Made by a program: the position numbers and the translations under genes. The notes beneath the pieces were generated by a model. It had not been told where the DNA came from and made no database searches. It worked only from the letters and a program-made list of their open reading frames with translations. A stretch of DNA of 64,000 nt from an uncultured Alphaproteobacteria bacterium. GTDB lineage: Bacteria; Pseudomonadota; Alphaproteobacteria; Rhodobacterales; Rhodobacteraceae. The DNA is taken from positions 62,001 to 126,000 of the forward strand of contig CACAMI010000001.1 of assembly GCA_902533625.1 (NCBI GenBank). Direction: 5' to 3'. Below are positions 15,243 to 62,236 of this stretch, piece by piece (position 1 is the first letter of the stretch; each line of letters begins with the position of its first letter).

Positions 15243-16382
15243 TCAAGTTAGATCATCCCAAAATCTTTTTACTCTTGAAAAGAAGTTTGATTCTGCGGGA
15301 TTGTTGTTTACTCCAATTTTTTGAAACTCCATCAACAAATTTTTCTGTTCAGAAGTTAAATTCACAGGCGTTTCCACCTCTAGCTCGACGTAAAGATCAC
15401 CAAAATTATTACCTCTTAGACTTGGCATGCCCTTTCCCTTTAATCTTAACCTTTTCCCACTCTGTACACCGTTTGGAACCTTAACCCTTGACTTTCCACC
15501 ATCCAAAGTAGGGGCCTCAAGTTCCCCGCCTAGCGCAGCTGTGATCATTGAGATAGGAATTTTGCAAAATAAGTCCTGAGAATCTCTCTCAAATATTTGA
15601 TGTTGTGATACTTCTACAAATATATATAAATCCCCATTTTGCCCTCCGCGAAGTCCAGCCTCTCCCTCATTTGCAAGCCTAATTCTGGTACCAGTTTCCA
15701 CTCCAGGTGGAATTGTGACATTCAGCTTTCTTTCTTTTTCTACTCTTCCTTGCCCGGAACAGTTTTTGCATGGATTTTTTATTATTTTTCCTTTTCCAGC
15801 GCATGTTGGACAACCTCTCTCAACTGTAAAAAAGCCTTGCTGAGCCCGAACTTTTCCAATGCCAGCGCATGTTGGGCAATTAGTGGCTTCAATTCCTCCC
15901 TCTGAACCAACACCCGAGCAAGAGTCACAAGTTACAGCACTGGGAACATTTATAATGGTTTTTTTTCCTTTGTATGCTTCAGTTAAATTGATATTTAAGT
16001 TATATCTAAGGTCGGACCCACGACTAGCCCTCTGAGGACCCCTTCTTGAAGACGATCCCATAAAGTCTCCAAATAAGTCTTCAAAGACATCAGAGAATGC
16101 TGATCCAAAATCTCCTGTTTGTCCTGAAGACCTGAAACCAGAATTACTAGTGCCACCCTCGAATGCTGCATGCCCAAACCTATCGTAAGCACTTCTCTTT
16201 TCAGGATCTCTTAGGATATCATATGCTTCATTAACAGACTTAAATTGTTCTTCAGCTTTTGGGTTGTCACTGTTTCGGTCTGGATGTAGTTCCTTGGCCT
16301 TCTTTCTGTAGGCTTTCTTCAATTCATCAGGTGAAGCACTACGTGAGCAGCTTAAAATTTCATAGTAATCTTCTTTTGCCAT
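15243..16382 (-). CDS. dnaJ: Chaperone DnaJ
   Basis: J domain with HPD, G/F region, four CxxCxG zinc repeats. Confidence 0.97.
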   Translation of the reverse strand: MAKEDYYEILSCSRSASPDELKKAYRKKAKELHPDRNSDNPKAEEQFKSVNEAYDILRDPEKRSAYDRFGHAAFEGGTSNSGFRSSGQTGDFGSAFSDVFEDLFGDFMGSSSRRGPQRASRGSDLRYNLNINLTEAYKGKKTIINVPSAVTCDSCSGVGSEGGIEATNCPTCAGIGKVRAQQGFFTVERGCPTCAGKGKIIKNPCKNCSGQGRVEKERKLNVTIPPGVETGTRIRLANEGEAGLRGGQNGDLYIFVEVSQHQIFERDSQDLFCKIPISMITAALGGELEAPTLDGGKSRVKVPNGVQSGKRLRLKGKGMPSLRGNNFGDLYVELEVETPVNLTSEQKNLLMEFQKIGVNNNPAESNFFSRVKRFWDDLT

Positions 16383-16421: not shown

Positions 16422-18323
16422 TTACTCCTTTTTATTTAAATCTTCAAAGTCTGCGTCTACTACGTCATCAGTTTGATTTTCCTCCGTTCCATCGGACTCG
16501 GTTTCAGAATTCTCGCTCTCTGACTTATAAATAGCCTCTCCCAACTTCATGGATGCTTCAGTAACATCTTGACATCGAGCTCTGATTTTCTCAGCATCAT
16601 CGCTTTCCAAAGTTTCTTTAAGGGCTTTTATTGAAAGTTCTATCGCTTCTACTGTAGCGCCATCAACCTTATCACCATGTTCTTCAATGGACTTTTCGGT
16701 TCCATGAATAAGGCTTTCAGCTTGGTTCTTTGATTCAACGAGTTCCTTTCTCTCTTTGTCCGATTCAGCATTCTCTTCAGCTTCCTGTACCATTTTATCG
16801 ATCTCATCTTCGGAAAGGCCTCCAGATGCTTGAATAGTAATTTTCTGTTCCTTTCCAGTACCCTTGTCTGTTGCAGATACTGAAACTATACCATTTGCAT
16901 CAATATCAAAGGTAACCTCAATTTGCGGCAAGCCTCTGGGGGCAGGAGCTATTTCCTCAAGATTAAATTGACCAAGTATTTTGTTATCTGACGCCATTTC
17001 ACGTTCACCTTGAAAAACCCTAATGGTTACAGCATTCTGGTTGTCTTCAGCAGTCGAAAAAATTTGGCTTTTCTTTGTTGGTATTGTTGTATTTCTGTCA
17101 ATTAAGCGGGTGAACACGCCTCCTAAGGTTTCTATCCCCAAACTCAAAGGAGTTACATCTAATAAAACAACATCTTTTACATCGCCTTGTAGCACGCCTG
17201 CTTGAATGGCTGCTCCCATTGCGACCACTTCGTCAGGGTTTACTCCCTTATTTGGATCTTTCCCAAAAAATTTTGTTACCTCCTCAATAACTTTAGGCAT
17301 TCTGGTCATCCCACCTACCAAAATTACTTCATCGATATCTGATTTTGAAATTCCTGCATCTTTTAATGCTGATTTACATGGAGATAGCGATTTAGAAATA
17401 AGATCTGACACTAGACTTTCAAGTTTAGCTCGCGTTAATTTTATCACCAAATGTAGTGGCTGACTTGTTTTTGGATCCATTGAAATGAAAGGTTGATTTA
17501 TTTCCGTTTGGTTTGAAGAAGATAATTCAATCTTAGCCTTCTCTGCAGCTTCCTTTAAACGTTGCAAAGCCATTTTATCGGCTGTTAAATCAACCCCTGT
17601 TTCTTTCTTGAACTCCTCTGCCAAATGTTCAACTATCCGCATGTCAAAATCCTCACCGCCTAGGAAAGTATCACCATTTGTAGACTTAACTTCAAAAAGA
17701 CCATCATCTATCTCTAGTATTGAAATATCAAAAGTACCTCCTCCGAGGTCAAAAACAGCTATTGTTTTGCCCCCCTCTTTATCAAGCCCATAGGCTAGAG
17801 CAGCCGCTGTGGGTTCATTGATAATTCTCAAAACTTCTAAACCTGCAATTTTTCCAGCATCCTTTGTGGCCTGTCTTTGAGCATCATTAAAATAAGCTGG
17901 AACTGTTATTACAGCCTGCTCAACTTCTTCATTAAGGTAGCTTTCAGCTGTTTCTTTCATTTTCTGGAGAATAAAAGCAGAAACTTGGCTAGGAGAATAT
18001 TTCTCATCTCTAGCCTTAACCCAGGCATCACCATTTCCACCATCAACGATTTCAAACGGCACCATTTTCTTGTCCTTAGTAACAGATTTATCATCTACTC
18101 TTCTTCCAATAAGTCTCTTAACAGCAAAAAGAGTATTCGTGGGGTTTGTAACCGCTTGACGTTTTGCAGCTTGTCCTACTAATCGCTCTTCATCAGTAAA
18201 TCCTACAATAGAAGGTGTTGTTCGTGCTCCTTCCGAATTTTCTATTACTTTAGCTGCCGAACCATCCATTATTGAAACACACGAATTGGTTGTTCCTAAA
18301 TCTATACCTATCACTTTCGACAT
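16422..18323 (-). CDS. dnaK: Chaperone DnaK
   Basis: [17 protein letters not shown]; full-length Hsp70. Confidence 0.98.
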
Positions 18324-18400
18324 AAAACTGTTCCTTTTCTATCCTTGGGCTTAAAATCCATATCAAGTATTTCAGCCAAAATTATAATCTTTCGATTTTT

Positions 18401-18428
18401 ATATAGGGCAATTTATCCACAATACAAG
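18401..18428 (-). promoter_or_regulatory. Putative RpoH (sigma32)-type promoter of dnaK
   Basis: Minus strand CTTG-N17-CCTATAT (CTTG tattgtggataaattgc CCTATATAA), close to the alphaproteobacterial RpoH consensus as I recall it, about 80 nt upstream of the dnaK start. Confidence 0.6.
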
Positions 18429-18446
18429 GGCAATTTATCCACAATA
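18406..18446. repeat. Two direct 19-bp repeats (GGGCAATTTATCCACAATA), each with a perfect DnaA box
   Basis: Copies at 18406-18424 and 18428-18446; TTATCCACA at 18413-18421 and 18435-18443, same orientation, 22-bp period. Confidence 0.85.
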
Positions 18447-18569
18447 GTTCAAGTAAAAAATGTCTCCTAAAATTTCCACAAAATGAATAATTGAATTTAT
18501 AAAAAAAATAAAAATTCATTATAGGATTAAAGGTTCAAATTTTCAGGTTTTTCTCAAGAAAAAGCTACA

Positions 18570-19034
18570 TCACGCAGCTTTCTCCTCGTTTTCTTCGGTT
18601 AATATAGAATAAATTACAGAAGAATCTTGGTTGGACCGTAGTTTGTGCCTAGTGTTTTTGCTTCTTAGCAAACGAGACACCCTTGCTAATGCTTTTAGAT
18701 GGTCACCGTTTGTACCTAGAGGTGCAAATAACGCAAAAACTAAATCCACAGGAATACCGTCAACGGAATCAAATAATATAGGCTTTTCTAACCTAGCAAA
18801 AATCCCCTTAACAGAATCAACTTTACTAACCCTAGCGTGTGGAATTGCTATCCCATCACCCATGCCAGTGGGCCCTAAGGATTCCCTTTCAGCTAAGGCA
18901 GAAAACACTTCTCTTTGGTTAAGGTCATACAAAACAGTGGCTTGCAAAGAAATTTCGTGAAAAAGATTCTTTTTACTGTCCACATTTAAACTAGCAATTA
19001 CAGATTGCGGATTAAGAATTTTTAAAACTTCCAA
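18570..19034 (-). CDS. ptsN: PTS IIA-like nitrogen-regulatory protein PtsN
   Basis: GMGDGIAIPHARVSKVDSV active-site region; follows hpf. Confidence 0.92.
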   Translation of the reverse strand: MEVLKILNPQSVIASLNVDSKKNLFHEISLQATVLYDLNQREVFSALAERESLGPTGMGDGIAIPHARVSKVDSVKGIFARLEKPILFDSVDGIPVDLVFALFAPLGTNGDHLKALARVSRLLRSKNTRHKLRSNQDSSVIYSILTEENEEKAA

Positions 19035-58535: not shown

Positions 58536-59924
58536 ATGTCATATCAGGAAATAGATAAAGATATCTGGGAAAGCATCTCGGAAAGATTAAAAAGAGAAAT
58601 TGGTCAAAGTGCTTTTGAAAACTGGTTGAAGCCTCTTAAATTCATAGAAATATCAGATAAAAGTGCAAAATTTAGGTCTCCAACTGGATTTATTGGGGAT
58701 TGGGTTAATCGTAATTATGGTGAAAAAATCGTTGGTGCTTTTCAGTCTGACGGTTTTCAGATTGACCGTTTAGAGTTTATGTCAATAATTCAACCTAGAA
58801 GTGACTCAAAGAAAACTCATACCAAGGTTGATTTTATAAAAAAAACCGAACCAAAAAGAGGGCTAGTAGAATCCGATTCTGAGCTTCCAGGATCTCCTTT
58901 AGACAAACGTTTTACTTTTGAAAGCTTTGTGGTTGGAAAACCTAACGAGCTTGCTCATGCTGCAGCCAGAAGGGTGGCTGAGTCAGATTCAGTATCATTT
59001 AACCCACTATTTCTTTATGGTGGAGTAGGCTTGGGGAAGACCCATTTGATGCATGCAATTGCGTGGAAAGTTAGAGCGCAAAAAAAGCAATCCAAAATCT
59101 TATATCTTTCTGCCGAACAATTTATGTATAGATTTGTACAAGCTTTGAGATTTAAAGATATGCACGGTTTTAAGCAGTTATTTAGATCTGTTGATATGTT
59201 AATGGTTGATGATGTGCAGTTTATAGCAGGAAAGGAATCCACTCAGGATGAGTTTTTCCACACATTTAATGCTTTGATAGATCAGGGTAAACATATAGTT
59301 ATTTCTGCAGATAGAGCACCTGGAGAAATAGATGGCTTAGAAGAAAGAATTAAATCTCGTTTGGCCTGGGGCTTAGTAGTCGATTTGCACCCAACCGATT
59401 ACGAACTTAGATTGGGAATATTGCAGGCAAAGATTGAAACTCATTCGGTTTATCATCCTGAAGTCGTAATTTCTGATGGAATTCTTGAGTTTCTGGCGCA
59501 TAGGATCTCGTCTAATGTTAGGGTATTGGAGGGTGCTTTAACCAGATTATTTGCCTTTGCATCTTTGGTCGGTAAAGAGATAGATATGGATATGGTGCAA
59601 GAATGCCTTGCTGACATATTAAGGGTATCAGATCGAAAGGTAACAATAGAAGAAATCATTAGAAAAGTAGCGGAGCATTACAATCTTAGAATGACAGATT
59701 TAATGTCTGCAAGGAGGTCTAGATCAATAGCAAGGCCTCGACAAGTAGCAATGTTTCTTTCTAAAATGCTTACTTCAAAATCTTTACCAGAGATAGGTAG
59801 AAGGTTTGGGGGTAGGGACCATACTACCGTAATTCATGCAGTAAGAAAAATTGAGGAGCTTAAGTTTGTAGATGCTCAGCTTTCAGAAGAGGTAGAAATT
59901 TTAAGAAGAATGTTAGAAGCTTAA
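58536..59924 (+). CDS. dnaA: Chromosomal replication initiator DnaA
   Basis: FLYGGVGLGKTHLMHAIAW; domain IV GRRFGGRDHTTVIHAVRKIEEL. Confidence 0.98.
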   Translation: MSYQEIDKDIWESISERLKREIGQSAFENWLKPLKFIEISDKSAKFRSPTGFIGDWVNRNYGEKIVGAFQSDGFQIDRLEFMSIIQPRSDSKKTHTKVDFIKKTEPKRGLVESDSELPGSPLDKRFTFESFVVGKPNELAHAAARRVAESDSVSFNPLFLYGGVGLGKTHLMHAIAWKVRAQKKQSKILYLSAEQFMYRFVQALRFKDMHGFKQLFRSVDMLMVDDVQFIAGKESTQDEFFHTFNALIDQGKHIVISADRAPGEIDGLEERIKSRLAWGLVVDLHPTDYELRLGILQAKIETHSVYHPEVVISDGILEFLAHRISSNVRVLEGALTRLFAFASLVGKEIDMDMVQECLADILRVSDRKVTIEEIIRKVAEHYNLRMTDLMSARRSRSIARPRQVAMFLSKMLTSKSLPEIGRRFGGRDHTTVIHAVRKIEELKFVDAQLSEEVEILRRMLEA

Positions 59925-61150: not shown

Positions 61151-62236
61151 ATGGCCGGTATTTTTTTAAAGTCATTAATCTTAAATCATTTCAGAAGTTA
61201 TAAAAAGGAAACACTTAATTTCTCTTCAATTGGGACTGTTTTCACTGGACCTAATGGCAGCGGTAAGACTAATATACTGGAAGCAATTTCCCTTTTTTCT
61301 CCAGGTAGAGGTTTGCGAAAATCCAAAAATTATGAAAACTCTCGTAAGCCCGAGAATTATGGCTGGAAGATACAAGGAACTTTTGAAGGGTTAGAAGAAG
61401 TATATGAACTTGAAGTATCTTTTCAAGAATCAGGTGACAAAAAAACGAGCCTAGACGGCAAAAAAACTACACAATCAAAGATGAATGATTTAGTGAAAAT
61501 TCTTTGGATTACTCCTCAAATGGATAGACTTTGGACATCTGGGGCATTGGAAAGAAGAAATTTTATAGATAGAATTACATATGGGTTTTATCCCAACCAC
61601 GGGAAATTTCTACTATATTACGAAAAACTAGTTAGAGAAAGAAACGAACTTTTTCGGCTAGGAAACTATGAAAAAAGCTGGATGGATTCTCTGGAGGTTC
61701 AAATTGTTAATTATGGAATTGAAATTTTTCGTAATAGATCTGACACAATACAAACTCTAAACAAGTCTGCAAAGGTGCAAGAAAATTTTCCTAAGCCAAA
61801 ACTTGAAATTCTGGGTGAAAATTTCATCAATAAAGACACATATCTAATGAAGCTGAGAGATAATCGTAATCTAGATAATTTTTCTGGCAGAACATCAGTC
61901 GGACCGCATAAATCTGATTTAAATTTGATTTATATTGATAAAGGTATAGATGCTAAAGATTGCTCCACTGGAGAACAAAAAGCTCTTTTAGTATCTATTA
62001 TTTTGTCTATGTCTAGAGAAATAGTAAAACTTTTTGGAGTGCCACCTATTCTACTGTTGGATGAAATTGGAGCACATCTCGATCATGAAAGAAGAAATGA
62101 ACTGATATTGCAACTTTTTGCGCTTAAGGCCCAGTTCTTTATTACTGCGACTGATCAAAGTTTTTTTAAGTATGATTATGATGACTTGAATTATGTAGAA
62201 ATCCTTAATAAAGGCGGAAATTCTTATATAAAATAA
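61151..62236 (+). CDS. recF: DNA replication and repair protein RecF
   Basis: LILNHFRSYKKETLNF; FTGPNGSGKTNILEAISLFSPGRGLR; PPILLLDEIGAHLDHERR. Confidence 0.95.
   Translation: MAGIFLKSLILNHFRSYKKETLNFSSIGTVFTGPNGSGKTNILEAISLFSPGRGLRKSKNYENSRKPENYGWKIQGTFEGLEEVYELEVSFQESGDKKTSLDGKKTTQSKMNDLVKILWITPQMDRLWTSGALERRNFIDRITYGFYPNHGKFLLYYEKLVRERNELFRLGNYEKSWMDSLEVQIVNYGIEIFRNRSDTIQTLNKSAKVQENFPKPKLEILGENFINKDTYLMKLRDNRNLDNFSGRTSVGPHKSDLNLIYIDKGIDAKDCSTGEQKALLVSIILSMSREIVKLFGVPPILLLDEIGAHLDHERRNELILQLFALKAQFFITATDQSFFKYDYDDLNYVEILNKGGNSYIK

Follow-up and report, generated by a model that had tools for sequence, protein, structure and literature searches.

Two perfect DnaA boxes lie upstream of dnaK in this genome, and the one nearer the gene sits between the promoter-like -35 and -10 elements and is selectively conserved in a second species of the same genus. 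This arrangement suggests that DnaA may bind the box in the spacer and repress an RpoH-type dnaK promoter, with stress or titration releasing it, a reading that we give an even chance of being correct. The window analysed is a stretch of 64,000 nucleotides covering positions 62001–126000 of contig C1 in a draft genome (G000) of 1.85 Mb, which is 75% complete and in 72 contigs. Gene content and the similarity of its DnaK place the organism among the alphaproteobacteria, and its family is probably Rhodobacteraceae. Positions are those of the window unless given as contig positions.

Boxes and promoter elements upstream of dnaK

The features of the region are collected in Table 1. The 19-mer GGGCAATTTATCCACAATA is read at 18406–18424 and again at 18428–18446, and the direct repeats that had been predicted at 18406 and 18428, each with a TTATCCACA and 22 bp apart, proved exact in their coordinates and are a perfect 22-bp repeat according to TRF. 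The length of the AT-rich intergenic region was likewise confirmed. No further copy of GGGCAATTTATCCACAATA was found in the 1.85-Mb assembly, even with up to 3 mismatches allowed. Both boxes are exact TTATCCACA and belong to the high-affinity 9-mers TTATNCACA, and the proximal one reads TGTGGATAA on the minus strand (18421–18413). With TATATA counted as -12 to -7, the two boxes, spaced by 22 bp, lie on the same helical face. Because the second copy arose as a tandem duplication, the pair represents one event and not two, and an explanation is therefore needed for one box, plus one slip. From the 18 sites genome-wide, about 0.01 box pairs within 60 bp would be expected, and apart from the pair at dnaK the genome has no tandem perfect boxes within 30 bp of each other.

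Table 1. Coordinates of genes, promoter elements and DnaA boxes in the window.
Feature	Position	Strand	Details and basis
dnaK (Hsp70, 633 aa)	16422–18323	-	Pfam HSP70, E 2e-272; ORF
dnaJ, next after dnaK	15243–16382		ORF
ptsN (PTS EIIA), upstream of dnaK, same direction	18570–19034	-	Pfam PTS_EIIA_2
ptsN-dnaK intergenic region	18324–18569		246 bp, 26% GC; ORFs and sequence
Putative -10 element CTATATA, RpoH-type	18400–18406	-	Family dnaK promoters; kept in congener
Putative -35 element CTTG, RpoH-type	18425–18428	-	Conserved among family dnaK promoters
Second CTTG, upstream of distal copy	18450–18453	-	No -10 at the right distance; sequence
22-bp tandem duplication	18405–18446		Period 22, 1.9 copies, 100% match; TRF
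Proximal perfect DnaA box TTATCCACA	18413–18421	+	In -35/-10 spacer, about -28 to -20
Distal perfect DnaA box TTATCCACA	18435–18443	+	About -50 to -42; duplicated copy
dnaA, presumed trans-acting factor	58536–59924	+	Pfam Bac_DnaA_C, E 5e-30; PDB match DnaA 1j1v

On the minus strand the putative promoter reads CTTG-TATTGTGGATAAATTGCC-CTATATA and lies 105 bp ahead of the dnaK start codon (ATG). A strict pattern, CTTG-N17/18-CYTATAT at 100–151 bp upstream of dnaK, was found in 21 of the 30 best-matching genomes of a dnaK search, G000 and its congener G001 among them, so that the pattern is kept at the orthologous position ahead of a heat-shock gene. An RpoH-type dnaK promoter is well supported by this comparison, and dependence on RpoH itself is presumed. 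The original prediction of an RpoH-like dnaK promoter with a DnaA box within its spacer is borne out by the same count and by the spacer box being kept in the congener, whereas the CTTG said to precede each repeat on the minus strand was found abutting the proximal copy but three bases (AAC) away from the distal one, and the two copies are therefore not equivalent. The RpoHI and RpoHII promoters of R. sphaeroides have a TTG core (PMC3441632), and the RpoH promoter of R. etli has the form cTTGaa-N16-CgATaT (PMC4167512). The dnaK promoter resembles such alphaproteobacterial RpoH (sigma-32) promoters in having a TTG-centred -35 and a TAT-rich -10 upstream of dnaK, but differs from them in the DnaA box within its spacer, and this spacer has one base fewer than that of most dnaK promoters in the family, for which the usual form is CTTGCAG-N-CCTATATA. 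A sigma-70 promoter-like site in the gap, at 18546–18518, was no better than chance.

The assemblies of G000 and G001 yielded neither rpoH nor rpoD, nor any other sigma-70 family gene, while rpoH is present in all five near-complete relatives. Since rpoD is missing too, and rpoH and rpoD are 6–7 kb apart in three of these five, it is likely that both assemblies have a gap where the two genes are linked, although this would be unusual for two independent genomes. Elsewhere on the contig, an apparent ORF of 2119 aa that begins as ClpB (C1:191163–197522; L110) is spurious and stems from a 5-kb stretch of N (192501–197500).

Conservation and specificity of the spacer box

The only congener compared, G001, is the single-cell genome SAG AG-453-O22 of an uncultured alphaproteobacterium, and the conservation evidence comes from one genus and two species, both with draft genomes. 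At the same offset, G001 carries CTTG-CACTGTGGATAAATTGAA-CTATATA, and the remainder of the ptsN-dnaK gap is unalignable between the two. Identity across the promoter block is 25/29, against at most 19/29 elsewhere in the two gaps, and the spacers match at 14 of 18 positions, 13 of them in an unbroken run, TGTGGATAAATTG (P about 5e-6 when the G001 gap is modelled by its dinucleotides). Fourfold sites of dnaK differ between the two genomes at 128 of 208 positions (62%), and neutral DNA is therefore near saturation. A longest-common-word test was weaker, with 13 against a maximum of 13 among 300 shuffles, and the strength of the footprint is in its fixed position. The conserved box overlaps the predicted polymerase-binding position at the same offset in both species, and the proximal box appears to be under selection. 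G001 has no counterpart of the distal copy but carries TTACCCACA 21 bp upstream, oppositely oriented; the distal copy is a species-specific duplication. Footprinting of the proposed perfect tandem boxes thus bore out the proximal member and not the distal one.

A genome-wide box count, put forward in the original prediction as a check, gave no sign of enrichment in G000, with 18 perfect TTATCCACA against 27 of the reversed word, and 606 against 592 when one mismatch is allowed. Most perfect boxes lie in open frames: 14 of the 18 in G000, where the other four comprise the dnaK pair, a box in one other gap and a box at a contig end, and 14 of the 15 in G001, where the sole intergenic box is the one at dnaK. 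When the proteins of the G001 box neighbourhoods were compared with the G000 box loci there was a single match, at 28% identity, and dnaK appears to be the only perfect-box location common to both genomes. The lack of enrichment is what would be seen if an AT-rich spacer simply held the word by chance and the two species shared it by descent, with a replication slip later duplicating the box; the duplication, being 100% identical, also looks recent. Such an account is unlikely for the proximal box, given the 13 consecutive spacer bases retained without a change despite the near-saturated neutral sites, but a chance origin is plausible for the distal copy alone.

The conserved stretch of 13 bases extends four bases (ATTG) past the DnaA 9-mer. 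DnaA binding alone gives no reason for this extension, and a further factor could be involved. The 13-mer may then be the operator of another regulator, or a genus-specific promoter element, with the match to a DnaA box incidental, and the presence of TGTGGATAA between the -35 and -10 elements of an unrelated family of phage promoters would fit with this. We regard this alternative as rather doubtful: the match to the strongest DnaA box is 9/9 in both species, the 13-mer lacks dyad symmetry (4 of 14 positions of the site are self-complementary), an asymmetry that seems to fit monomeric DnaA better than a dimeric repressor, and the exact 13-mer occurs nowhere else in the G000 genome, which argues against a general promoter element.

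No box was found at the other heat-shock promoters of the contig (hslV, clpB, htpG, an Hsp20 gene, grpE, hrcA and dnaJ). Among 397 genomes of the family, a sample that includes several hundred other genera and genomes of roughly 2–7 Mb, the pattern of a box in the dnaK promoter occurs in two, both of the same genus, and in none of the other 395. Since the dnaK box is absent from other family members, there is no general circuit of this kind. A GTDB-wide scan for the pattern upstream of dnaK returned only the congener; of five other matches, three fall inside ORFs, and the remaining two are in non-coding DNA of unrelated organisms, without dnaK downstream. In a distant relative (G115), a 46-bp segment with a pair of TTATCCACA boxes spaced by 37 bp is present in near-identical form on two contigs, L049 and L062.

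The origin of replication and DnaA titration

The gap between aroE and hemE is the classical site of oriC in alphaproteobacteria. In this genome the landmark genes, with names read by eye from the translations, are found at contig 50–61 kb in the order aroE-coaE-dnaQ and hemE-rho-mnmE-gidA-gidB-parA-parB, and the gap between aroE/coaE/dnaQ and hemE, at contig 52.0–52.3 kb, is outside the window, while dnaK is at 80.4 kb. The origin is likely to be this gap, beside the parAB/gidAB cluster and about 28 kb from the dnaK boxes. The gap itself (C1:52026–52337; L103:12026–12337) is very AT-rich, with only the near-boxes TTTTCCACA and TTATGCACA.

The alternative that the dnaK-ptsN gap is an origin, as the original prediction had allowed, draws on its low GC content, its paired boxes and the low of the raw cumulative skew at about 22 kb of the window. 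That raw low, however, tracks a long run of minus-strand genes, and once fourfold-site GC skew was corrected for strand, on the single 225-kb contig, the switch fell at contig 46 kb (bootstrap 80% range 38–64 kb, 95% range 17–91 kb). Placing the switch at the hemE gap costs at most 1.5 log units relative to the best fit, and a switch at dnaK is 11 log-likelihood units worse; the 95% range by itself would not exclude dnaK, and the rejection rests on the likelihood together with synteny. Nor does the gap resemble an origin in content, which would have several DnaA boxes and an AT-rich unwinding element, since it has two boxes, and the congener has a single perfect box. With the landmark genes at 52 kb and the parAB-gidAB genes alongside them, the gap was rejected as oriC, and we consider an origin there extremely improbable.

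That the boxes could serve as a DnaA titration site of the datA or DARS kind in the vicinity of the origin and hardly affect dnaK is suggested by their being the genome's only such close tandem pair and by their position about 28 kb from the predicted oriC. We hold this to be improbable, as the conserved box keeps a constant place within the promoter spacer, the congener has only one perfect box, and there is no cluster in G000, just a pair.

A possible link between DnaA and dnaK expression

The preferred reading, repression of dnaK by DnaA, supposes that, in this genus, a high-affinity DnaA box arose within the spacer of an RpoH-type dnaK promoter. DnaA bound in the spacer would be a steric obstacle to RpoH-RNA polymerase, so that little dnaK(J) would be transcribed as long as DnaA is abundant, and dnaK would be released when free DnaA falls, either by Lon degradation under stress or by titration after initiation. 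Repression is the natural reading because DnaA at this site and RNA polymerase would be in competition. The 22-bp duplication, which placed a second box two helical turns upstream, would probably give stronger occupancy. A cognate DnaA is encoded in the genome, with its box-binding domain intact (motif GRDHTTV), and is the presumed binder. It is possible, though somewhat doubtful, that a circuit peculiar to this genus operates in the two species, with direct repression of dnaK by DnaA bound within the heat-shock promoter.

In E. coli, rpoH is a known target of repression by DnaA (Wang and Kaguni 1989, via review PMC8203912), and inspection of the sequence upstream of E. coli rpoH revealed TTATTCACA at -139 and TTATCCACA at -115. 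The two cases are alike in having DnaA boxes at the promoter of a heat-shock control gene, with repression proposed, but in E. coli the target is the gene of a sigma factor, whereas here it is that of a chaperone and the box is inside the -35/-10 spacer. The dnaA gene of E. coli is autoregulated, with a box between dnaAp1 and dnaAp2 (PMC8203912), and repression from a perfect TTATCCACA, as proposed here for dnaK, would be similar. The target differs, however, and no near-box with up to 1 mismatch was found in the 300 bp upstream of dnaA in this genome, so that classical box-mediated autoregulation of dnaA is not evident. In Caulobacter, depletion of DnaK leads to degradation of DnaA by Lon (Jonas 2013, via PMC5760092). 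Here too the level of DnaK would be coupled to that of the replication initiator, but the Caulobacter arm is proteolytic, and the arm proposed from DnaA to dnaK would be transcriptional, with dnaK presumably relieved of repression exactly upon the destruction of DnaA.

If this is correct, the DnaA box fixed in the dnaK promoter would be a direct transcriptional return arm to the control of DnaA by DnaK and, combined with the DnaK-Lon-DnaA pathway of Caulobacter, would complete a loop in which protein homeostasis and replication initiation act on each other. It suggests that DnaA, by holding dnaK down, could couple chaperone production to chromosome replication in two bacteria with small genomes. 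No paper with both 'DnaA box' and 'dnaK promoter' was found among the open-access papers searched.

A box in a promoter spacer was also observed among viral sequences. In eight IMG/VR contigs (L152–L159), a DnaA box lies between the -35 and -10 elements of a common sigma-70-type promoter, TTGACWTGTGGATAACTATCCTATATA. A 3-kb stretch of one of these contigs had no match in an annotated phage collection. The viral promoters (e.g., L154:8170–8197) are mostly intergenic and precede short ORFs, and they have the same geometry as the dnaK case, of which they are apparently independent.
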